Origin: a virus
Strand: one strand, 5' to 3'
DNA length: 64,000 nucleotides
IMG/VR virus record: IMGVR_UViG_3300046542_000086
Span: 17,696-81,695 of that record
Shown here piece by piece: positions 53,122 through 64,000 of the stretch (positions are counted from its first letter, which is position 1; each line of letters starts with the position of its first letter). Position numbers and translations under genes: made by a program. Below the pieces are notes generated by a model that worked only from the letters and a program-made list of their open reading frames with translations, was not told where the DNA came from and did not search any database.

Positions 53122-53868
53122 GTGGACGCGACCGTATTCAGAATCGTCTCTATTGGGATCGTGGCAGAAAACAAAGCCATGTTCGCCAAAGAGGTCGATG
53201 TCACCCCCATTGAAAGCATGAGCATGTTGGATGGGGAAATAAAATCTAATCCTACGGCTGTCGAATCAGAAGGCACAGACGCCCGTGGACAGAGCTTTGC
53301 GACTCGGGCTACCGTAGACTCCACTGTGACGGCAACGTGGCTCCCATGGGGCTCTAATCGCGTTACACCGCCTGATGTACGTCGTGGTGAGCGAGTGTAT
53401 CTGTGGCAAGCTGCTGATGCTGACAAATATTACTGGACTTCCAGTGGTCTAGACGATCGCCTGCGTAAACTGGAGACGGCTATCTTTGCCTTCAGTGCTT
53501 CCAGTAATGAGACAGACTCTGGGATTGATGTCGACAAGTGCTATTTCATCGAGATCTCTACTCACCAGAAGCTCATCACTTTAAAGACGTCCTCAGCTAA
53601 TGGTGAACCGTACGAGTACACTTTCCAGTTCAACACTGGTGAAGGTGCGGTGACCCTAGCAGATGATGTGGGTAATTACTTCGAGCTAGACAGTGAAGCC
53701 CAAAAGCTCACACTGAAGAACCAAGCTCAGTCGCATGTAATTCTCGACAAGACTCGGATCAATATCAAAGCACTCGACGAAGTGGCTATTGATGTAGGGG
53801 CATCCCAAGTGTCTATCACTCCGGGTGGGACCATCTGGAAGACGCCGAAGTTCGAAGGGGGTAGTTGA
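53122..53868 (+). CDS. Baseplate central spike (gpV/gp5-like)
   Basis: Trimeric needle at the tip of the tail that pierces the outer membrane. GTG 53122 follows AAGGAG. The 248-residue chain has an N-terminal OB-fold-like region ending in RRGERVYLWQ (about 92-101), a short helix, then a C-terminal half of alternating strands with LTLKNQAQSHVILDKTRINI-type repeats, as expected for a beta-helix spike. The next gene, a PAAR tip, starts within its stop codon. The position after a late promoter and before fibre genes agrees with a baseplate cluster. Confidence 0.75.
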   Translation: MDATVFRIVSIGIVAENKAMFAKEVDVTPIESMSMLDGEIKSNPTAVESEGTDARGQSFATRATVDSTVTATWLPWGSNRVTPPDVRRGERVYLWQAADADKYYWTSSGLDDRLRKLETAIFAFSASSNETDSGIDVDKCYFIEISTHQKLITLKTSSANGEPYEYTFQFNTGEGAVTLADDVGNYFELDSEAQKLTLKNQAQSHVILDKTRINIKALDEVAIDVGASQVSITPGGTIWKTPKFEGGS

Positions 53869-54125
53869 TGCCTGGAATCACTTTAGTCGGTGTACACAAA
53901 GCCGGTGGAGAGATCTTAGGTCCAGGAGAACCCACCTTTACTATTAATGGAGCACCTGTCTCACTGCTCAACGACACCGTGGTCCCTCATGATGGACACG
54001 TTAACGTCAAGTTAGTGGAAGGTTCAGCTTGGATGACGTGGAATGGCGTCCCAGTCGTCCACCAAGGACACTTAGCCAGTTGCGGACACACGGCTGAGGG
54101 TTTGGCCAATTGGATCATTGAGTGA
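53868..54125 (+). CDS. PAAR-motif spike tip protein
   Basis: An 85-residue cone-shaped cap that sharpens the spike, with a metal ion held by conserved His and Cys. The sequence shows the PAAR-like pattern: GDH-like turns replaced by PHDGHVN, a VHQGHLASCGH segment with three His and one Cys able to bind metal, and glycine-rich turns. It starts one base inside the stop of the spike gene (TGATG). The pair is the same as in phiKZ-like, T4 and type VI secretion systems. Confidence 0.82.
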   Translation: MPGITLVGVHKAGGEILGPGEPTFTINGAPVSLLNDTVVPHDGHVNVKLVEGSAWMTWNGVPVVHQGHLASCGHTAEGLANWIIE

Positions 54126-55450: not shown

Positions 55451-55454
55451 TATG
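55451..55454 (+). promoter_or_regulatory. TATG late-type promoter before fibre 1
   Basis: TAATAGTATGGTG lies 58 bases upstream of ATG 55512, with AGGAG as ribosome site. The same AATAGTATG string precedes the tail sheath gene (8473-8481). Confidence 0.5.
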
Positions 55455-55511
55455 GTGCGTATTCTTTTACAGGCAACTATAACATTCGCTGTTTTCACAG
55501 GAGTCATCGGT

Positions 55512-57995
55512 ATGGCGACAACCTATACTTACCCATTTGACCCTACTGGTGCTGCGACAACTAACGCCGTTGCTAACGAGCGACACGTGTTGTCCCCACC
55601 AGCATGGAAGGACTTTTACTTCATAGTCCCTAAGTTTGCCCCTTACTTCCGGGACTCGTTGCGGGTGATCCATCGCCCGTCAGGTAAGCTCCTCGTCGAA
55701 GGTAAGGATTACCATTGCACTCACTACTTCCACGCAGCTTCTCACGGCGTGGCACGGCGAGTGTACGGTTCAATCACGATGCTCGACAAGACGCTGATCG
55801 GTGTCCTCGAGATCAACTACCAAACCCTCGGCGGTGACTGGGTACTGGATGCGTCGGCTGACTTGACTCGTCTGACCAACACGCTGACCAACCCTCGGAT
55901 TACTACGTGGGAAGAAGTGGTTGATGTTCCATACCAGTTCCCTCCTATTGATCACCAGTGGGACCTCGAAGACCTCAAGGGCGTTGAAGCCATCCTTCCG
56001 ATTCTGGAATCGATGACTGAAGCAATCCGCGACTCGGCTGGTTCTTCGTTTGCATTGCACATCGCTGACAAAGCGAACCCTCACTCGGTAACGAAAGACC
56101 AAGTGGGACTTGACCAAGTTCAGAACTTACCCATTGCGAATATTTCAGAGGCCAACGCTGGTACTCTCAATACTCGTTACATGACGCCTGTTCGCACCAA
56201 GAACTTCGTTGACGCCTACGTCGTACCGTTGCTCGAAACCCACAAAGCGGACTTGAACAACCCTCACGGGACGACCAAGACGCAAGTGGGTCTGGGCTTG
56301 GTTGAGAACTTCAGCATCGCTTCACAAGCAGAAGCTGAGACGGGTAGTGCGACTAACCGTTACATGACTCCGTTGGCGGTTAAGCAAGCCATTAACATGT
56401 TGGCGAACACCGGCCTGTCTACGCACTTGGCAGACATCAACAACCCACACCAAACCACCAAAGCTCAAGTGGGCCTCGGTAGTGTGGAGAACTTGCCGGT
56501 AGCGACGACTGCTGAGGCTGAGGCCGCTGCACGTAACGACCGCTACATGACTCCACTGGCAACCGCTAAGCAGATCCAGGTCTTGGTCAAAGACTCGATG
56601 GACTTGCACTTGAACGCGGTGAACAACCCCCACTTGACCACCAAGGCTCAGGTAGGGTTGGGTAACGTTCAGAACTACCTGACCGCCACTCAAGCAGAAG
56701 CCGAAGCTGGCTTGATCACCACTGCGTACATGACGCCGTTGATGACTCGTAAAGCGATCGAAGCGATTGCTACTGGTTCCATCGGTTCTCACTTGGCTGA
56801 CAGTAACAACCCCCACGCTACGACTAAAGCGCAGGTAGGTCTCAGTAACGTAGAGAACTACACCATCGCTAACACCACAGAAGCTCAGGTGGGGGATTCC
56901 AATACCCGCTATATGACCCCTCTGTTGGTAAAGGCGGCGATTGATGCACAAGTGGGTACTGGGGTGTCTGGTCACGTTAGTGCTGTGAACAACCCGCACC
57001 AAGTGACTGCTGTTCAAGTCGGTACGTACGCTTCGGGTACTCTGGACACCATGTTCGCTGCTAAGCTGGGTACTCTGGCTATGGCTGCTGATTCGGCTGG
57101 TCTGGAAGGACACACCTACGAGGACGTGTTGGTAGCTGCGAAGAGTCAAGGGACTTTGAACTCGGATAAACTGGGTAACCAAACTCTCGCTCAAGTACTG
57201 GCTTCCGCTAAGGCTCAGACCGCTGATAACTCCACGCTACTCGGCGGCAAGACGGCAACTCAGATCGGTGACGAACTGGTAGCGGCTCTGGCTTACACCA
57301 AGCAACTACGTGTGCCTGACTACGCCATCGCTAACGATGCCACTAACAAGTGGATTCCACTGTGTAAAGCGTCCCCAGTGGTCAACATCGACACCGATGA
57401 CCTATGCATCATGTTCAACGGTCTGAACGAGGTCAGTGGTCGGACCATCACCGGCATCATTGACCTGAACACTACCGCTCTGACGTCGTCTGTTACGATC
57501 CTGTCGGGACACGTCACGGACTTGGAGATCTTGTACACGAACGTCGGCGGTGTATTCCGACTGTGGTACAAAACCAATGCCAACGAACTGTCGACCACGA
57601 CCTTGACGCTGATCTCTGGTAAGTCCTTCACTGAGATTGATCCAGCAGCGGTGGTGTCTGCTACAGCTCCGGCTGGTGCAGTGCTGATCCCAATGGTTGC
57701 CGTTGCTCCTAAACGGATCGCCTCAGAGTTCGTCACGCTGGCTGCTGCTGCTAACAAAGAGTACGACCTGCAAACGTTGCTGGGTGCCAGTCACGCAGCT
57801 TACGACAAAGACGGTGCTCTGGTTCAGGTGCGTGTGAAAGACGTACAGGCAGGTTCGCCTACGCTTAACATGTACATCACTCCTCCTGCTGGCGTTGTCA
57901 CCGCTCTGCGGGCTAACCGGTATGTTCGGGTGTTGAACTCTACTGCTGCTTCGGTAGATCTCCAAATCCGTGTAGACGTACCCCGTCTTCCATAA
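55512..57995 (+). CDS. Tail fibre 1 with 61-aa repeats
   Basis: An 827-residue receptor-binding or fibre protein. Order: N-terminal attachment domain (1-185) beginning TTYTYPFDPTG; six repeats of 61 residues (about 187-500), each with NNPHxTTKAQVGLG, then a TxAEAExG and a RYMTPL segment, as in the phage fibre repeat family (PF03406-like); a spacer; and a distinct beta-rich C-terminal domain (about 600-827) likely to contact the receptor. ATG 55512 is chosen from AGGAG. It shares domain plan with the next gene. Confidence 0.83.
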   Translation: MATTYTYPFDPTGAATTNAVANERHVLSPPAWKDFYFIVPKFAPYFRDSLRVIHRPSGKLLVEGKDYHCTHYFHAASHGVARRVYGSITMLDKTLIGVLEINYQTLGGDWVLDASADLTRLTNTLTNPRITTWEEVVDVPYQFPPIDHQWDLEDLKGVEAILPILESMTEAIRDSAGSSFALHIADKANPHSVTKDQVGLDQVQNLPIANISEANAGTLNTRYMTPVRTKNFVDAYVVPLLETHKADLNNPHGTTKTQVGLGLVENFSIASQAEAETGSATNRYMTPLAVKQAINMLANTGLSTHLADINNPHQTTKAQVGLGSVENLPVATTAEAEAAARNDRYMTPLATAKQIQVLVKDSMDLHLNAVNNPHLTTKAQVGLGNVQNYLTATQAEAEAGLITTAYMTPLMTRKAIEAIATGSIGSHLADSNNPHATTKAQVGLSNVENYTIANTTEAQVGDSNTRYMTPLLVKAAIDAQVGTGVSGHVSAVNNPHQVTAVQVGTYASGTLDTMFAAKLGTLAMAADSAGLEGHTYEDVLVAAKSQGTLNSDKLGNQTLAQVLASAKAQTADNSTLLGGKTATQIGDELVAALAYTKQLRVPDYAIANDATNKWIPLCKASPVVNIDTDDLCIMFNGLNEVSGRTITGIIDLNTTALTSSVTILSGHVTDLEILYTNVGGVFRLWYKTNANELSTTTLTLISGKSFTEIDPAAVVSATAPAGAVLIPMVAVAPKRIASEFVTLAAAANKEYDLQTLLGASHAAYDKDGALVQVRVKDVQAGSPTLNMYITPPAGVVTALRANRYVRVLNSTAASVDLQIRVDVPRLP
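56073..57050 (+). repeat. Six 183-bp coding repeats in fibre 1
   Basis: The NNPH (first copy ANPH) codons start at 56073, 56256, 56439, 56622, 56805 and 56988, an exact 183-base period. Core residues are conserved while codons vary, so selection keeps the protein repeat. The last copy decays after the VQVG segment. Confidence 0.92.
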
Positions 57996-58008: not shown

Positions 58009-59634
58009 ATGGGCACAATCATTCTTAAGTACCCAGAAGACCCTACTGGGGTAAACCCGAACAACCTGGTCATCAACGAACCTCACGACTTGGGTCCTGC
58101 TCGTAACCGAGCATTCGTTCCCAACTACGGCTCTTACTTCACAGAGTCGATGATTGTTACTGAGGCGGTGACCGGTCGGGTGCTCACCAAGGGTGTTCAC
58201 TACATCGCTGCACAACTGCAACAAGACGCCACGCTGGCGATGGACAAAGAGATTTGTGCCGTCGTCGTGGTGATCGATGAAAACGTGCGGGACTCGTTGC
58301 TGTTCACTTACCAAGTTGTTGGTGGTGTGTTCAGTACTTCGGCTGCTGCACTGGCGACGTTGATTGAAGCGTTGGACATTGACGAACGTGAAGTAGAGTG
58401 GGGTGGCTTGATCGGCATCCCTACCGCGTTCCCACCAGCGCCTCACCTCCACGACATCGGCGACGTCTACGGTTTCGAGTATCTGGTTGAAGCCCTCGAT
58501 GCTCTGCGTAACGCTATCTTGATTGGTGATGAATCAGCGCACGATGAACTGCGTCAGTACATCAACTACCAAGACGGTTTGGCGATTGCATCGATTGCTG
58601 ACCTGCGTGCTGACTTTGAAGGACACGAGAACAGCCGTAATAACCCACACGCTGTGAACAAGACACAAGTTGGCTTGGGTAGTGTGCAGGACTACGGCAT
58701 CGCGACCACTCAGGAAGCACAAGCGGGCATCGTCAACAACAAGTACATGACTCCGTTGCGTACTTACGAGGCGATCATCCAGTTGACCACTGGTCCGTTG
58801 AACGCTCACTTGACGAACATGTCGAACCCACACCAAACCACTAAGGCTCAGGTAGGGTTGGGGGTAGTCGAGAACTATCAACCATCGACACAAGCTGAAG
58901 CGGAAGCAGGGACACGACCAGATCGGTACATGACCCCGCTGACGACTAAGCAGGCGATCACGCTGCAAGCGATCACTCCGCTCAACAACCACATCAACAA
59001 CGTGAACAACCCACACGCCACTACTAAAGCCCAAGTTGGTTTGGGTAGCGTATTGGATTACGGGATTGCGTTGCAGAACGAAGCAGAAGCCGGTACCTCG
59101 AACCTGAAGTACATGACTCCTCTGCGAACTGCGAACGCGATTGCGGTGTTGGCTGTAGCTCCGTTGAACACACACATCGCTAACGTCAACAACCCGCATG
59201 CTACTACCAAGGCGCAAGTGGGTCTGGGGAACGTACAAGACTTACCATTGGCTACTTCGGCTGAAGCTATCGCAGGTGCGTCGAATGCCCGCTATATGAC
59301 TCCTGTCACTACGGCGAACGCAATCAACTCACAGATCATTGTAGCTTTCAACGCCCACACCGGTAACCTGTCGAACCCCCACGCTACGACTAAAGCGCAG
59401 GTTGGCTTGAGTGCCATTCCTAACGCTATCACTCGTTCTCGTGCGTTGAACAGCGATGCTTCGTTGTTGACTGCTGGTGGTATGTACGACCACACCATCT
59501 CTCTCGACCACGATGCTCGCTACGCTCCAAAGAACATGGCGGGTGTTGACTGTTCGGTACATTGGAACGGGGCTGGTGTGTTTGTTTGGGGCGGTGGTGC
59601 TTGGCGTCAAGTCTGGCCTGCTCAGTGGTCCTAA
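58009..59634 (+). CDS. Tail fibre 2 with 61-aa repeats
   Basis: A 541-residue paralogue of fibre 1, 13 bases downstream with AAGGAATAGG before ATG. The N-terminal 205 residues share the YPxDPTG start and general plan with fibre 1 but are diverged; five 61-residue repeats follow; the C-terminal 60 residues are short, ending in a Trp-rich segment (WNGAGVFVWGGGAWRQVW). The lack of a large tip domain suggests a shorter fibre, or that fibre 1 carries the receptor-binding head. Confidence 0.83.
   Translation: MGTIILKYPEDPTGVNPNNLVINEPHDLGPARNRAFVPNYGSYFTESMIVTEAVTGRVLTKGVHYIAAQLQQDATLAMDKEICAVVVVIDENVRDSLLFTYQVVGGVFSTSAAALATLIEALDIDEREVEWGGLIGIPTAFPPAPHLHDIGDVYGFEYLVEALDALRNAILIGDESAHDELRQYINYQDGLAIASIADLRADFEGHENSRNNPHAVNKTQVGLGSVQDYGIATTQEAQAGIVNNKYMTPLRTYEAIIQLTTGPLNAHLTNMSNPHQTTKAQVGLGVVENYQPSTQAEAEAGTRPDRYMTPLTTKQAITLQAITPLNNHINNVNNPHATTKAQVGLGSVLDYGIALQNEAEAGTSNLKYMTPLRTANAIAVLAVAPLNTHIANVNNPHATTKAQVGLGNVQDLPLATSAEAIAGASNARYMTPVTTANAINSQIIVAFNAHTGNLSNPHATTKAQVGLSAIPNAITRSRALNSDASLLTAGGMYDHTISLDHDARYAPKNMAGVDCSVHWNGAGVFVWGGGAWRQVWPAQWS
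58639..59433 (+). repeat. Five 183-bp coding repeats in fibre 2
   Basis: NNPH or SNPH codons start at 58639, 58822, 59005, 59188 and 59371, again an exact 183-base period, in phase with the fibre 1 repeat length. The motif NPHxTTKAQVGL is retained in all but the first copy, which has NPHAVNKTQVGL. Confidence 0.92.
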
Positions 59635-59666: not shown

Positions 59667-59692
59667 TTAATTACCAGCCCTTGGGGGTCGAG

Positions 59693-60202
59693 ATGTTGAA
59701 ACTAATAAACGACTTCACTTTTGATGGCATCACCGAAGCCAGTCTCAAACTGGACGACGTGTTAGCCAGCCCTTTCTTCTACGAGCAAGGGTTAGTGAAG
59801 TACGTGCTACTCGGCCAGTCTCACGATGCCTACAACCCGTGGGACTATATACAGAACTCTGCGAGCGTCTTTAAGATTGAAGGCTTTGAAAGATTCAGCT
59901 TAAAGATGTTCGACGAGTGCCGTTATTTGGCAGAACATTACAAACACCATGGTGCGATAACTTGCCATGTGTTTAAGTCCCCTAAGGGGGCAAAGAGTTT
60001 CCCTGAACACACTGATCCTGACGACGTGGTCCTGTACATGGTCAGTGGACAGAAAGAGTTCGTACATGACGGTGGCGTCTTGACCCTACATGAGGGAGAG
60101 ATCCTTTTGATCCCCGCTGGCACCAGACACCGTGCCGTCAACACTGAAGCTTCGGTTATGCTGAGCTTTGGGTTGGAGCGCTTCTTAGTTGAGAAACTGT
60201 AA
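59693..60202 (+). CDS. JmjC/cupin-type putative Fe(II) oxygenase
   Basis: A 169-residue protein whose second half has the plan of a small JmjC-like hydroxylase: H106-T-D108 (HxD), K121 in a VSGQKEF strand where 2-oxoglutarate-binding Lys is found, a HEGEILLIPAGTRH segment, and H146 as third iron ligand. Such enzymes hydroxylate residues of proteins. The start is ATG 59693 with a G-rich site. It shares the TAATG junction with the radical SAM gene, so it is translated with it. It could alternatively be a non-oxygenase cupin, for example a metal-binding partner. Confidence 0.65.
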   Translation: MLKLINDFTFDGITEASLKLDDVLASPFFYEQGLVKYVLLGQSHDAYNPWDYIQNSASVFKIEGFERFSLKMFDECRYLAEHYKHHGAITCHVFKSPKGAKSFPEHTDPDDVVLYMVSGQKEFVHDGGVLTLHEGEILLIPAGTRHRAVNTEASVMLSFGLERFLVEKL

Positions 60203-61236
60203 TGGGTAAGACGATCTACGTTAAGACTACCGGTGCGTGTAACCTTGCTTGCAAACACTGCTTCACCAACGGCAAAGACGGCGATAAAACTCAGTTCGAT
60301 CCCGTGCAAGTAGGGGATTGGATTGAGGACTATATGTCCCGTCATCCAGCAGGCACAGACTACCACCTAGAGTTCCATGGTGGCGAACCGTTTCTTGTGC
60401 CGTTAGAAAAGCTAGAGGTTTTGGCCTCTCGGTTCCACGAGCGTGAAGGCGTAGGGATGTGTGCGAACTCTAACCTGACCTTCAAGATTACCCCAGAGCA
60501 CGTGGCGTTCATCCAGAAGTACTTCTACGGCCACATTGGTACGAGTTGGGATCACTGGATCAGGTGGAGCAACCAGAAACAGTTTGACCTCTGGTGTAGC
60601 AACCTTGCGTTACTCCGTGGGGAAGGGATCTCGATCTACCTCAAGGTGTCGGTGAGTCGTGAACTACTGAAGATGGCTCCGGATTGGTTCTTGGACCAGA
60701 TCGAGTTCTTCGGAGTGAAGGAAGTTTCACTGGAGCGCTTAACGTTGGATGGTAGTGCCAATGAAAACTTGGACATCTTCCCTGACAACGAAGCCCAAGA
60801 CAACTGGTACCTTGCCCTCTACCAACGTTATAAAGAACGTAAAGGTACGGTAAAGATCCGCACCCTCGACATCATCGAGCAGAAGCTCAAGTACGGCATC
60901 GTTAAGGTAGACACCAACTGTCGCAACTGTGAGCAGAACCTCGTCACCATCAACTCTAACGGTGCTCTCGGGGGTTGTCCTAACGTTGCCACTACTCGAC
61001 AGCACTCCCGGTTGGAACAAGGTGCTGAGGCCTTCATTAAGTCTGATGGTCGGGTTGAAGAAATCGCCCAAGAGTTGACGTGGAACGAGAACTGCATTAC
61101 CTGCGACGTGTCTGACTTGTGTGGGGGCGACTGTCACCGTCTACCGTGGCAAGGGAATCGTTGTGGGGGACTGAAGAATACTTTGAGACACTTATCCGGT
61201 CGTTCACAACAGACCAACTTAATTTTGAAGGTGTGA
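60202..61236 (+). CDS. Radical SAM/SPASM peptide-modifying enzyme
   Basis: A 344-residue enzyme with the CxxxCxxC cluster-binding motif at C13, C17 and C20, and GGEP at 60-63 for SAM binding. The C-terminal part has a SPASM domain: C240, C243 and C259, then C298-xx-C301-x5-C307-xxx-C311-x9-C321, which bind further iron-sulfur clusters. SPASM enzymes modify ribosomally made peptides or proteins, for example by thioether or carbon-carbon crosslinks, or oxidise a Cys/Ser of a target as sulfatase maturases do. It starts on the stop of the oxygenase-like gene and ends one base before the Cys-rich gene, its likely substrate. Confidence 0.9.
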   Translation: MGKTIYVKTTGACNLACKHCFTNGKDGDKTQFDPVQVGDWIEDYMSRHPAGTDYHLEFHGGEPFLVPLEKLEVLASRFHEREGVGMCANSNLTFKITPEHVAFIQKYFYGHIGTSWDHWIRWSNQKQFDLWCSNLALLRGEGISIYLKVSVSRELLKMAPDWFLDQIEFFGVKEVSLERLTLDGSANENLDIFPDNEAQDNWYLALYQRYKERKGTVKIRTLDIIEQKLKYGIVKVDTNCRNCEQNLVTINSNGALGGCPNVATTRQHSRLEQGAEAFIKSDGRVEEIAQELTWNENCITCDVSDLCGGDCHRLPWQGNRCGGLKNTLRHLSGRSQQTNLILKV

Positions 61237-61237
61237 C

Positions 61238-61789
61238 ATGGCAAACGTAACTAAAGCTAGTGTACTCGAGCGGGCTAACGCTTGGCTCGCGGGTAACGGT
61301 AACGCAGGTATCTCGTGGGGTACGAACAACTACCCTGCCGGTGCTCTCGCTGGTTGGTTCGGTGGTACTACTGGCGGTGTGGCTGCGATGGCTGCCAACT
61401 CGTTCAGTGACGGTAATGCCAATGCTGCCTCGTTGGCTGCTGCCCTGCGAGCCTTCACCAACACCTTTGCCGCAATCCGCTTGACCCGCATTGTGATCTA
61501 CTATGCCAACAACACGGGTGAAGACTACGTCAACGCATTCAACACTGTGCAGTATGACGGTACAGCGATTGCTCACACGGCGTACTCGGTGGGTAACATC
61601 GGTGCTGGGGTCTCTCTCCCGGGCATGGTTGCTAACCAGAACCTGAACTACGCCAACCTCGAGGCGTCCTGTTCGAACCTGTGGTCCAGTTACTACAACA
61701 ACTGCCGTACTAACGCTCTGACATTGGTTAACACCGTATGTCACAGCAGCTGCCACGACAACTGCCACTGTGCACGCGGTCGTCGTTAA
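61238..61789 (+). CDS. Cys-His-tailed protein, probable substrate of the radical SAM enzymes
   Basis: 183 residues, GAAGG before ATG. The first 140 residues are Ala, Gly and Asn rich with no Cys and one His. All six Cys lie in the last 39 residues: C145, C156, C168, C172, C176, C178, with His directly after C168, C172 and C176, followed by an ARGRR end. This Cys-His pattern at four-residue spacing is unlike common zinc fingers and looks like a modification or metal site. Adjacency to the SPASM enzyme suggests a precursor-like substrate. Whether it is secreted, cut or built into the virion is unknown. No family recognised. Confidence 0.75.
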   Translation: MANVTKASVLERANAWLAGNGNAGISWGTNNYPAGALAGWFGGTTGGVAAMAANSFSDGNANAASLAAALRAFTNTFAAIRLTRIVIYYANNTGEDYVNAFNTVQYDGTAIAHTAYSVGNIGAGVSLPGMVANQNLNYANLEASCSNLWSSYYNNCRTNALTLVNTVCHSSCHDNCHCARGRR

Positions 61790-61800
61790 AGGAGTTTCCC

Positions 61801-62532
61801 GTGGAAAAGATTCACTGTACTGCCCCGATTGGTTTGGCTGAACTGAAACGTAAGTTCACTGAAGACGTCGAGTTTGTGATCGACTACGACAACTCGCGCT
61901 TCAAAGGTAAGACGCTGATCACTTACCTCAGTAACTTGGACATCCAAGTCCGTCTGGACCTGAAAGACCCAGAAGCGATTCAGGTACTCCTCGCTGACTA
62001 CTTGAACATGTCGGCTATGGTCAAGATCGCTGACCTCGAAGAACTGGCGATGAACGTATTGCTAGCCTTCTGTCAAAAGCCTTACGTGTTGCCGTTTGAT
62101 TCGGCACCGTTCATTCAGGCTAACCGCGACATCCTGGACGTCTGGACTCGTCGACTGCAATCTCTGCCGTTGTACGCAATCCACACGATGGGGGAAAAGT
62201 ATCACGACTACGTTTTCAGTTTCCCTGAAGACCGTGATGACTCGGTAGTGGGTCTGAACTTCGTGAACCTGATCAAGCTCCCGATGTTTGCTGTGCTGAT
62301 CGCTGGTGTAGAAGAAACCGCCTACACTTGGAATAAAACCTTCTTTACCGACTACGTGTTTGGCGGTAACAACCTGTTCAACTACTTCGCCGTGAAAGAG
62401 AACCCGCTGTTCATTGGTGTACTGGCGTTGCAAGACCAGGCCTCCTTTGACTCAGTGGTACCTCAGTTGATCGCAGCTGAAGCTGACGCAGAACGTCAGT
62501 TCAAGGAGCTTACACATGTACCATCTGTTTAA
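61801..62532 (+). CDS. Unknown protein of the maturation operon, 243 aa
   Basis: GTG 61801 is chosen because AAAGGAG lies just before it; an earlier frame start would overlap the Cys-rich gene. A soluble protein with mixed composition and codon use of well-expressed genes. No motif. Its last 17 bases overlap the next gene. It could be a substrate carrier, a peptide-recognition partner or a virion part, but none is visible from sequence. Confidence 0.65.
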   Translation: MEKIHCTAPIGLAELKRKFTEDVEFVIDYDNSRFKGKTLITYLSNLDIQVRLDLKDPEAIQVLLADYLNMSAMVKIADLEELAMNVLLAFCQKPYVLPFDSAPFIQANRDILDVWTRRLQSLPLYAIHTMGEKYHDYVFSFPEDRDDSVVGLNFVNLIKLPMFAVLIAGVEETAYTWNKTFFTDYVFGGNNLFNYFAVKENPLFIGVLALQDQASFDSVVPQLIAAEADAERQFKELTHVPSV

Positions 62533-63571
62533 CTCGGTGTACGTCGACACTGAACGCCGGGTTAACCGGGCGGTCAGCAACATCACTATCTCGAAACACA
62601 TCGGCTTTGAGTATCACCCAGGGCCGAATGAACAAGCGGGTGAGCAGATTGGCTTTGCTCAGTCGTTGGATGACGTAGAACCTCGCGTCCTGTTGGCTTG
62701 GCTGACACTGGCGATGCAGCAGGAAGAAAAAGTATTCATCTACTGCGATGGCGAAACGTATGTACGACTGTATTCCTTGCTCGTGCGTACCGTCTTCCCG
62801 AACCTTGACCTGCTGACCTACAAGTGGATCATGCTCTGCAAGAAGGCTACGTTGCACACCTCACTCACCAACTGGAAACAGGCTGGCTGTGAAGTACTGG
62901 CTGGCGTAGAGCTGAACACTGCAACCATCACTGCGTCGTTCGAGAACCCAGATCCACTGACGTCGATGTTCAAAGAACTGCTGTCTACTGACCGTGACGT
63001 TCTGTCGTTGGAATGGCAACTGGTTCGTCTGATGGCTGAAGGTACGGTAGGTTGCATCCCTGCTCGTCTGAAGAACATCCTGCGTCGTATCGCTTTGGCG
63101 AACACTCACGATGCGCTGGACGTTTGGGGTCGTGTGATTACCGATCCTCAGCACTGGGAATTCGCTGGTGCTGACCTCGACACGCTGTTGGATGCTCCTT
63201 CGGTGTTTGAAGGTTGTATGTTGTTCCAGTACACCAACAACCGGATGTTCCTCAAACCCGGTACGTTGGAGAAGACTCCGAAAGACAACTGGTTGATCGG
63301 TCTGCTGCGTGAACTTGATCCACTGCTCGAACGTGTCGGCGAACCTGCGACGGCCAAACGGACTCGTCTGATTCTTGAGATGTTGGAATCGGAAGACGAT
63401 CTGAATGACCCAGCTGTGCTGCTGGAACGCGTCAAGCAGATGTTCCTCGGACCAGATCGTTTGGCTCTGCCTAACCGGGACTCGAGCAAGTACGACGAGA
63501 ACCTGATCCGCTACCTGTTGGGTCGTTCGGACATTGACCTAGCTTATTACCTAGAAGGGGCTACATGGTGA
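62516..63571 (+). CDS. Unknown protein of the maturation operon, 351 aa
   Basis: AAGGAG lies five bases before ATG 62516. A soluble, leucine-rich, mostly helical protein with several Trp and Cys but no cluster. It overlaps the second radical SAM gene by seven bases, so the three genes 61801-64000 are strictly coupled. Not recognised; a scaffold or leader-binding role is a guess. Confidence 0.65.
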   Translation: MYHLFNSVYVDTERRVNRAVSNITISKHIGFEYHPGPNEQAGEQIGFAQSLDDVEPRVLLAWLTLAMQQEEKVFIYCDGETYVRLYSLLVRTVFPNLDLLTYKWIMLCKKATLHTSLTNWKQAGCEVLAGVELNTATITASFENPDPLTSMFKELLSTDRDVLSLEWQLVRLMAEGTVGCIPARLKNILRRIALANTHDALDVWGRVITDPQHWEFAGADLDTLLDAPSVFEGCMLFQYTNNRMFLKPGTLEKTPKDNWLIGLLRELDPLLERVGEPATAKRTRLILEMLESEDDLNDPAVLLERVKQMFLGPDRLALPNRDSSKYDENLIRYLLGRSDIDLAYYLEGATW

Positions 63572-64000
63572 ATCTGATACCGTTGGTTGACATACTCCAA
63601 GAGAAGAAAGGCGATACCAAAGAAGCACACCTGATTCTCTTTGAGAAGTGTAACCTTCGGTGTTCGTTCTGCCATCAGGATCATGACTCTGAAGTTGGCT
63701 TGGATGCTGGGGACATAATGCGCAAGGGCTTGAAGCTGATTGCTGAGAGTGACCTTGAAGCTCCCATCGTGATCAACATCACTGGTGGGGAGTTGTTCTC
63801 AGATAACATCGAGGACTGGGTGTTCGGCTACTACTTGTCGTTAGGACAGTTGTTGCTGAAGAACTTCAAGCGGGCTAAGTTGGTCTGGGGTACAAACCTG
63901 ATCTACAGTGATCTCTGGCGAGTAATGCGGTTGATCAGCATGTTGCGGGCTGGGGCTACCAAAGACCAGACCGTGTGCTTGGCAACGTCGTACGATCCAG
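63565..64000 (+). CDS. Second radical SAM enzyme, cut by window end
   Basis: ATG 63565 (AAGGGG upstream) opens at least 145 residues running past the window. CxxxCxxC is at C29, C33, C36 and the GGE motif at 74-76 (NITGGELF). The N-terminus differs from that of the first enzyme, so this is a different subfamily, not a duplicate. A C-terminal SPASM or other domain cannot be judged. It is the last visible gene of the operon. Confidence 0.85.
   Translation, partial: MVNLIPLVDILQEKKGDTKEAHLILFEKCNLRCSFCHQDHDSEVGLDAGDIMRKGLKLIAESDLEAPIVINITGGELFSDNIEDWVFGYYLSLGQLLLKNFKRAKLVWGTNLIYSDLWRVMRLISMLRAGATKDQTVCLATSYDP

Follow-up and report, generated by a model that had tools for sequence, protein, structure and literature searches.

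Closest Described Systems

In the His-Xaa-Ser system (HxsA, HxsB, HxsC, and HxsD; NCBIfam TIGR03976–TIGR03979), the comparatively large protein HxsA ends in a short repeat rich in His and is encoded beside radical SAM maturases. Among phage proteins, gp38 of T-even phages is an adhesin and gp37 of T4 is a His-x-His iron needle, and to our knowledge neither needs radical enzymes. Arrays of radical SAM genes have been published for phages pPa_SNUABM_DT01, 332-Vera, FLC6, SURPRISE13, RP12/RP31, and CP220; 332-Vera is reported to have eight such genes inside its structural cluster. Phage radical SAM genes are called "highly unusual" in two reports (PMC2853527 and PMC12390700). Within the accessible portions of the open-licence PMC literature on phage radical SAM arrays, the protein described below is not named and the enzymes are not tied to a virion protein. 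A description of this protein family, or of such a use of radical SAM enzymes, was not found in open-licence PMC full text.

The Cys-His Protein and Its Cassette

The window analyzed here, a stretch of 64,000 nucleotides of viral DNA, contains an ORF at 61238–61789 (+) that translates into a protein of 183 residues, the proposed substrate (assigned from the array in homologues, their alignment, and an AlphaFold2 model). Its C-terminal end, residues 168–183 (61739–61786, +), is the array CHSSCHDNCHCARGRR. The sequence-only reading of this DNA had placed all six Cys in the last 39 residues and a His directly after each of Cys168, Cys172, and Cys176, which is borne out by the translation: Cys occupies positions 145, 156, 168, 172, 176, and 178, and His occupies positions 113, 169, 173, and 177. 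It had also remarked on Cys178 and a following ARGRR; both are present, but Cys178 is not conserved, being mostly Ser, Ala, Asn, or Thr in homologues, and RGRR is, as judged from the alignments, conserved to the same degree as the Cys-His pairs. The pattern CHxxCHxxCH arose in none of 200,000 shuffles of the protein and occurs once across the six frames of the window.

The preceding gene (60202–61236, +) encodes a 344-residue radical SAM/SPASM enzyme, identified by matches to Pfam Radical_SAM (29.7 bits; cut-off 29.5) and TIGR04085 SPASM (27.5 bits; cut-off 27) and by Cys conservation. Its CxxxCxxC motif (Cys13, Cys17, and Cys20) is kept in all 171 related ORFs of this first type of radical SAM enzyme, and each of the eight Cys of the SPASM region (240, 243, 259, 298, 301, 307, 311, and 321) is kept in 98–100% of them. 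Together, these Cys give the arrangement typical of SPASM enzymes that hold two auxiliary clusters, and the enzyme has both sets of Cys that characterize radical SAM/SPASM enzymes that modify peptides. For the radical SAM/SPASM enzymes of the window and of bacterial loci, the nearest curated models are the peptide maturases PapB and DynA and a sulfatase maturase, and the nearest match in a profile search of the PDB is lysine 2,3-aminomutase (2.3e-4).

A cupin protein (59681–60202, +; Cupin_2, 3.1e-12) precedes this enzyme, its gene overlapping the start of the radical SAM gene by one base. Downstream of the Cys-His protein are a conserved partner of 243 residues with a GTG start (61801–62532, +; phrog_20767, identified by phrog match and neighbor clustering), a second conserved partner of 351 residues (62516–63571, +) of the same family as the phrog_36207-like protein of other loci, and a second radical SAM gene (63565–63999, +; identified by its radical SAM match) that is cut by the end of the window and of the contig. 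Because the window reaches the end of the 81,695-base contig, the cluster is incomplete here, and what follows in it was taken from relatives. Among 37 loci with long flanks, each has four to seven radical SAM genes; the 241-residue partner (phrog_20767) is encoded in 37, the cupin in 35, a protein of 351–358 residues in 33, a 137-residue protein in 32, a 2OG-Fe(II) oxygenase (main cluster) in 31, and a B12-binding radical SAM enzyme in 2, the neighbor-family HMMs having been built from the same loci in which they were counted. As assigned from these matches, the module consists of the cupin, the radical SAM/SPASM enzyme, the Cys-His protein, the 241-residue partner, four to seven radical SAM enzymes, and 2OG-Fe(II) oxygenases. 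B12-binding radical SAM genes are seen at L143:961–2631 (−) and L349:8571–10310 (+), which suggests an extra modification by C-methylation in those cassettes.

DNA similarity of window positions 60202–61789 to phage records was not found. A tblastn search with the precursors of smaller phages matched no phage or plasmid record, apart from a partial match to Burkholderia phages.

The cassette follows a logic similar to that of the His-Xaa-Ser and CXXX-repeat systems without belonging to either. The resemblance to the former is clearest in a bacterial homologue, L360, which ends WCHSSHSSHSSHSSRGRR and whose repeats weakly match HxsA; the match (TIGR03979) reaches, however, only 16 bits where the cut-off is 121.65 and covers only the repeats. 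The tail of L360 thus seems to link Cys-His repeats with His-Xaa-Ser repeats, although as scored it fails the HxsA cut-off. The Cys-His protein of the window has no match in NCBIfam. Among the subset of radical SAM enzymes scanned, the best score is 38.1 bits for HxsC (cut-off 267.9) and 29.5 bits for HxsB (cut-off 370); the cut second radical SAM gene of the window scores 19.5 bits with HxsC, and no HxsD match was found in the partner protein of the window or of L360. The main repeat here is also different, being Cys-His-x-x with R-x-R-R and mainly viral. With the CXXX-repeat system the cassette shares a Cys at every fourth residue and a radical SAM/SPASM enzyme, but the TIGR04115 maturase model scores at best 17.6 bits (cut-off 350), for one bacterial radical SAM enzyme, and here a His follows each Cys, the body is large and folded, and the setting is that of tail fibres. 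The ranthipeptide enzyme PapB is the nearest curated model of the window radical SAM enzyme, which has a complete SPASM-type Cys set; nevertheless, NF047865 gives 46.2 bits and does not reach its cut-off of 340, and the substrate here would be a folded protein of 183 residues rather than a small peptide.

Conservation of the C-terminal Array

Aligning homologues to see which part is conserved had been proposed from the sequence alone, and the conserved part proves to be the tail array. In an alignment of 53 members (A1), all invariant columns are in the tail (Cys172, His173, Cys176, His177, Arg180, Arg182, and Arg183), and Cys168 and His169 are present in at least 90%. Counted from the C terminus, C(−12), H(−11), C(−8), H(−7), R(−4), R(−2), and R(−1) are present in 101 of 101 homologues less than 70% identical to each other, a set preselected by a CHxxCH...RxRR filter, outside which L031 falls. 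The searches unbiased by the tail are those made with the radical SAM enzyme only and with the body only. Among homologues from the former, identity of the body is at most about 60% and often lower, with hardly any variation in the tail. Pairwise comparison of the tail in the 101-homologue set gave 9.4 differences per 16 sites at third codon positions as compared with 4.9 and 3.3 at first and second positions; because third positions vary most, the constraint on the tail acts on the protein.

In homologues from the two unbiased searches, the array nearly always ends R-x-R-R. The motif is absent from L028, L029, and L252 and is therefore not essential for recognition. The number of pairs varies: L024 has two, L028 and L029 have four, and L008 and L023 have 13–14, yet these last two have six radical SAM genes each, no more than homologues with three pairs, suggesting repeated action of the enzymes. 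In L031 the third pair is Cys-Asn (CHTSCHSNCNCNRGRR).

Additional domains are found in some homologues. In L028 the array is followed by a Peptidase_S74 domain (Pfam, 1.5e-11), and L247 has an LRR_5 match within the body (Pfam, 2.2e-35). In L044 (4201–5569, −) and L125 the body gene is split into two ORFs; the first ORF of L044 has a glycine-rich domain at its end (Gly_rich_2, 1.8e-10), and the Cys-His tail belongs to the second. LRR and glycine-rich domains are common in contact proteins. In L229 (1642–2865, −), six Cys-His pairs precede a PT-rich linker, and the C terminus beyond it appears Hint-like by eye; Pfam called only the PT repeat there and not a Hint self-processing domain.

Linkage to Radical SAM Genes

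The search with the radical SAM enzyme only found 28 viral loci, which together with L002, L003, and five phage records gave 35 loci for examination. One of these, L022, was left out of the count since its sequence ends inside the radical SAM gene; in all 34 readable loci, an ORF with a Cys-His array lies directly downstream of the radical SAM gene, and 30 have the full CHxxCHxxCHxxRxRR, the exceptions being L024, L028, L029, and L031. When the body was used with the tail trimmed off, the array was present in 54 of 54 loci (52 with RxRR and two ending CHSNCHGSCHGSI), and a radical SAM gene was within 2.5 kb in each, many of these loci being on the same contigs as loci from the other searches. 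Homologues that retain the body without the tail, which would speak against the sequence-only reading, are thus absent from the 54 body-only matches; the departures from a body with a standard tail are the modified tails of Bacteriovoracia and one split gene (L044/L125).

The search with the tail gave at least 119 stretches, 117 with a qualifying ORF among the matches listed (L124 and L146 have no complete ORF and were left out of the count). Among the same matches, a radical SAM gene is present at 110 of 117 loci; in the seven without one, the sequence extends no more than about 2 kb to one side or to both, and where 2 kb was available on both sides a radical SAM gene lies within 2 kb in 46 of 46. 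Occurrence away from radical SAM genes, the other observation that would count against the earlier reading, is confined to loci whose sequence stops soon after the gene on one of its sides. In bacterial and archaeal genomes, the tail pattern gave 18 stretches, 14 with an ORF and all 14 with a radical SAM gene (L276, L279, L280, and L285, with no qualifying ORF, were left out). Both of these sets were found by pattern and hence were selected for the tail, and a radical SAM gene was called at E < 1e-5 to single-sequence HMMs of six DT01 radical SAM enzymes. One of the stretches left out, L276 from a metagenome-assembled genome of Euryarchaeota archaeon SP339, shows the tail pattern close to where the sequence stops, together with three radical SAM ORFs and a cut precursor ORF; it is probably a truncated true case, either archaeal or misbinned.

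As a control, a four-pair pattern gave 119 new loci. In six of them (L202, L210, L221, L229, L247, and L252) the protein is a variant of the family, its array adjoining the partner protein or a radical SAM gene; none of the other 113, which match by chance, has a radical SAM gene. The tail, the body, and the bacterial and archaeal genomes are independent entry points, and all three agree on the linkage; the Cys-His protein family and its cassette are real and large. The proposals that the protein is a likely enzyme substrate, that it is tied to radical SAM genes, and that it matches no named family are all supported. Not brought out by the sequence-only reading were the position next to tail-fibre genes, the conservation of R-G-R-R at the C terminus, and how large the family is.

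Predicted Structures

An AlphaFold2 model of the Cys-His protein built with 53 homologues has a pLDDT of 89 and a pTM of 0.83. The body comprises helices and a sheet, the last strand of which runs into the array, and the array is disordered. The suggestion that the Cys-His pairs lie on one face of a helix does not agree with the model, in which the tail has a pLDDT of 54–57, and a heptad or helix arrangement of the tail was dropped for the same reason. Nor does the body resemble a leader, as had been considered; it is predicted to be a well folded, conserved domain, with a pLDDT of 86–98 over nearly all of its length.

Searching the PDB for the fold of this model gave no match at E ≤ 0.001; compared with known folds by VIA, its best Z is 2.0, a result that falls short of establishing a new fold. 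Foldseek found viral relatives only: A0A8A6C8P8, A0A6J5PFP0, a protein of phage Atu_ph07, and three proteins of Myoviridae sp. ctijX18. The last three (BFVD A0A8S5USJ8, A0A8S5USJ7, and A0A8S5USV2) have 504–660 residues and the same predicted body fold and may represent a branch of the family with longer proteins. The partner of the 241-residue type was modeled with a pLDDT of 95; it has no PDB fold match at E ≤ 0.001 and at most Z 4.2 by VIA. Profile searches of the PDB with precursor and partner gave nothing credible, and Pfam found no family shared by the 53 homologues and a single Glyco_hydro_45 match at 3.9e-4.

Tail-fibre Setting

The gene directly upstream of the module in the window (58009–59634, +) encodes a tail-fibre-type protein (phrog_2163, 4.7e-154; phrog_13857, 1.4e-90) and is preceded by a second one (55452–57995, +; phrog_2163, 6.4e-143; phrog_13857, 1e-136). 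Further upstream are genes for a baseplate assembly protein (53122–53868, +; phrog_3216, 2.8e-86), the DT01 counterpart of which is annotated as central spike, and a PAAR spike-tip protein (53865–54125, +; PF05488, 3.5e-11). Across 156 loci, 109 have an upstream gene on the same strand that is outside the module and encodes at least 150 residues, and 47 do not. When the last 330 residues or fewer of each of the 109 proteins were scanned, 66 matched phrog_19602 tail fibre, 25 phrog_13857 tail protein, 26 Peptidase_G2, and 7 collagen. In several loci with tandem copies, the Cys-His gene begins 0–4 bases past the stop codon of the fibre gene. The gene thus lies behind a tail-fibre gene, as a tail-fibre tip adhesin would.

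Peptidase_S74 domains are chaperones of trimeric fibre ends and are released by self-cleavage, after which the array of L028 would lie near a new C terminus. In its position directly behind a trimeric fibre gene, its metal-capable repeats, and the glycine-rich insert of L044, the family resembles T-even gp38 and T4 gp37; it differs in that the Cys-His protein has no PDB fold match.

In the jumbo phage Atu_ph07, the homologue is gp170, a protein of 296 residues ending CHSSCHASCHNSRSRR. According to the report on this phage, 131 virion proteins were detected by ESI-MS/MS, most of them encoded in three clusters, one of which is CDS 170–215 (PMC6102473). The numbering of the paper agrees with that of the record at gp181 (baseplate) and at gp198 and gp204 (head). 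Since gp170 is the first CDS of a named cluster, this suggests that gp170 itself was detected in virions.

Bacterial Homologues

Eight of the 14 genome matches have titles of Bdellovibrio or Bacteriovorax relatives. In the class of one such genome, Bacteriovoracia, 11 of 129 genomes match A1, and in all 11 radical SAM ORFs adjoin the homologue, in some cases far inside large contigs. The bacterial tails vary (CHSSHSSHSSHSSRGRR in L360, CHSNHCSHSNHGSRGRR in L361, and CHGNFPPPCHGSRGRR in L362–L365); those of L360–L365 are His-Xaa-Ser-like or interrupted by proline, with SRGRR and the radical SAM neighbors kept. HxsA itself is matched below its cut-off in 10 of 125 genomes of the class and above it in none. 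Genomes G130, G040, G077, G076, and G074 encode proteins, some in tandem, that match HxsA below the cut-off.

In a Halobacteriovoraceae genome (L348/L349), eight neighbors include FHA, clostripain, and catalase-type peroxidase proteins, and one S74 protein is encoded on the other strand near the cassette. No tail structure was recognized among the ten neighbors scanned in two bacterial genomes. With no recognized tail genes among these few neighbors, the cassette of Bacteriovoracia indicates that a virion role cannot be universal.

Proposed Function and Alternatives

The near-invariant tail, its linkage to radical SAM/SPASM enzymes with intact Cys motifs as read from the genes, the conserved partners, the 2OG-Fe(II) oxygenases and cupin, the place behind fibre genes, and the folded body are the features to be explained. 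On balance, we favor a virion protein associated with the tail fibre, probably at its tip, with a Cys-His tail that is covalently matured by a dedicated set of radical SAM enzymes. That the enzymes act on the Cys-His tail is highly probable and that the protein is in the virion is likely, whereas its location at the fibre tip, which is deduced from gene order and one fusion, is evenly balanced. The body would dock to the enzymes, and the radical SAM/SPASM enzymes would activate C-H bonds in the CHxx units, repeatedly; tentatively, Cys- or Cys/His-centered cross-links are the most likely product. The oxygenases and cupin would add oxidations. Because oxygenases need oxygen and radical SAM clusters dislike it, these steps may occur at different times or in different locations. 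The mature protein would be mounted on the fibre, where a hardened or metal-binding tip meets the receptor.

An alternative is that the array is an unmodified metal site, for iron or zinc, at the tip of a trimeric fibre and that the radical SAM enzymes target something else. T4 gp37 and phage spikes provide precedents, adjacent Cys-His pairs are repeated on a flexible tail, the Peptidase_S74 fusion of L028 points to a trimeric fibre protein, and the cupin and 2OG-Fe enzymes handle iron too. Plain metal binding, however, needs no set of radical SAM enzymes, the linkage to radical SAM/SPASM genes is complete wherever the flank suffices, bacterial loci included, and the 45 largest neighbor clusters listed contain no other recurrent small repeat protein. 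We consider this explanation unlikely, although metal binding after modification is possible. It is improbable that the protein is the precursor of a peptide toxin or signal, with the body as leader and the modified tail released. The similarity of the enzyme to peptide maturases (PapB, DynA, and the sulfatase maturase) and the variable repeat number fit such a precursor, but the body is a folded conserved domain, two homologues have LRR or glycine-rich inserts, the gene is located in the fibre region, and the module families identified include no exporter, immunity protein, or leader peptidase.

In the reports on DT01 and CP220, the radical SAM genes are read as auxiliary metabolic genes (PMC8541153 and PMC2853527), which here would serve host metabolism or DNA repair with the Cys-His protein a mere neighbor. 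This also appears improbable for the cassette, since radical SAM genes accompany the Cys-His gene in phages and bacteria, each being found from the other in independent searches, and cluster at it in all six phage contigs scanned whole: no PF04055 match is more than 9 kb away from the Cys-His gene in the three contigs of more than 220 kb, or more than 13 kb away in the three shorter ones. Campylobacter phage CP220 (L372, FN667788.1) has 11 PF04055 matches spread over its genome, in which neither the Cys-His pattern nor a body match was found; phage radical SAM arrays therefore also serve something else, and the five-gene module of CP220 must have another substrate or role. Covalent attachment of haem through the C-x3-C-H spacing of CHSSCH is very improbable, because haem is attached to c-type cytochromes in the periplasm whereas virion proteins are assembled in the cytoplasm and no cytochrome-maturation gene is among the neighbor families identified, even though a report on Baltic Sea viruses labels 261 of their genes ahbD, haem b synthase (PMC9301287). 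Some of these ahbD genes may be radical SAM maturases of the Cys-His cassette.

Returning to the covalently matured fibre protein, we know of no precedent for such virion chemistry as a radical-modified tail-fibre tip and of no radical SAM protein maturation in a virion tail. A broader proposal, plausible though at slightly less than even chances, is that tailed phages and Bdellovibrio-like predators use a multi-enzyme radical SAM line that covalently hardens or arms the exposed C terminus of a contact protein. Phage radical SAM genes have been a puzzle for more than 10 years and have been read as metabolic helpers; here such genes are linked to a single defined substrate, the last 16 residues of which are nearly invariant. 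The idea is testable because DT01, FLC6, SURPRISE13, Atu_ph07, and Phosso have been isolated and their hosts are in culture (P. aeruginosa for DT01, B. glumae for FLC6, and A. tumefaciens for Atu_ph07). DT01, FLC6, and SURPRISE13 carry the Cys-His cassette, the Cys-His protein being QTH80265.1 in DT01 and BCM95108.1 in FLC6. If true, it would recast some "metabolic" radical SAM genes of phages as virion-maturation genes, would add covalent radical chemistry to the ways in which a phage builds its contact surface, would define a new class of modified proteins, and would offer a bridge to the unexplained His-Xaa-Ser system.
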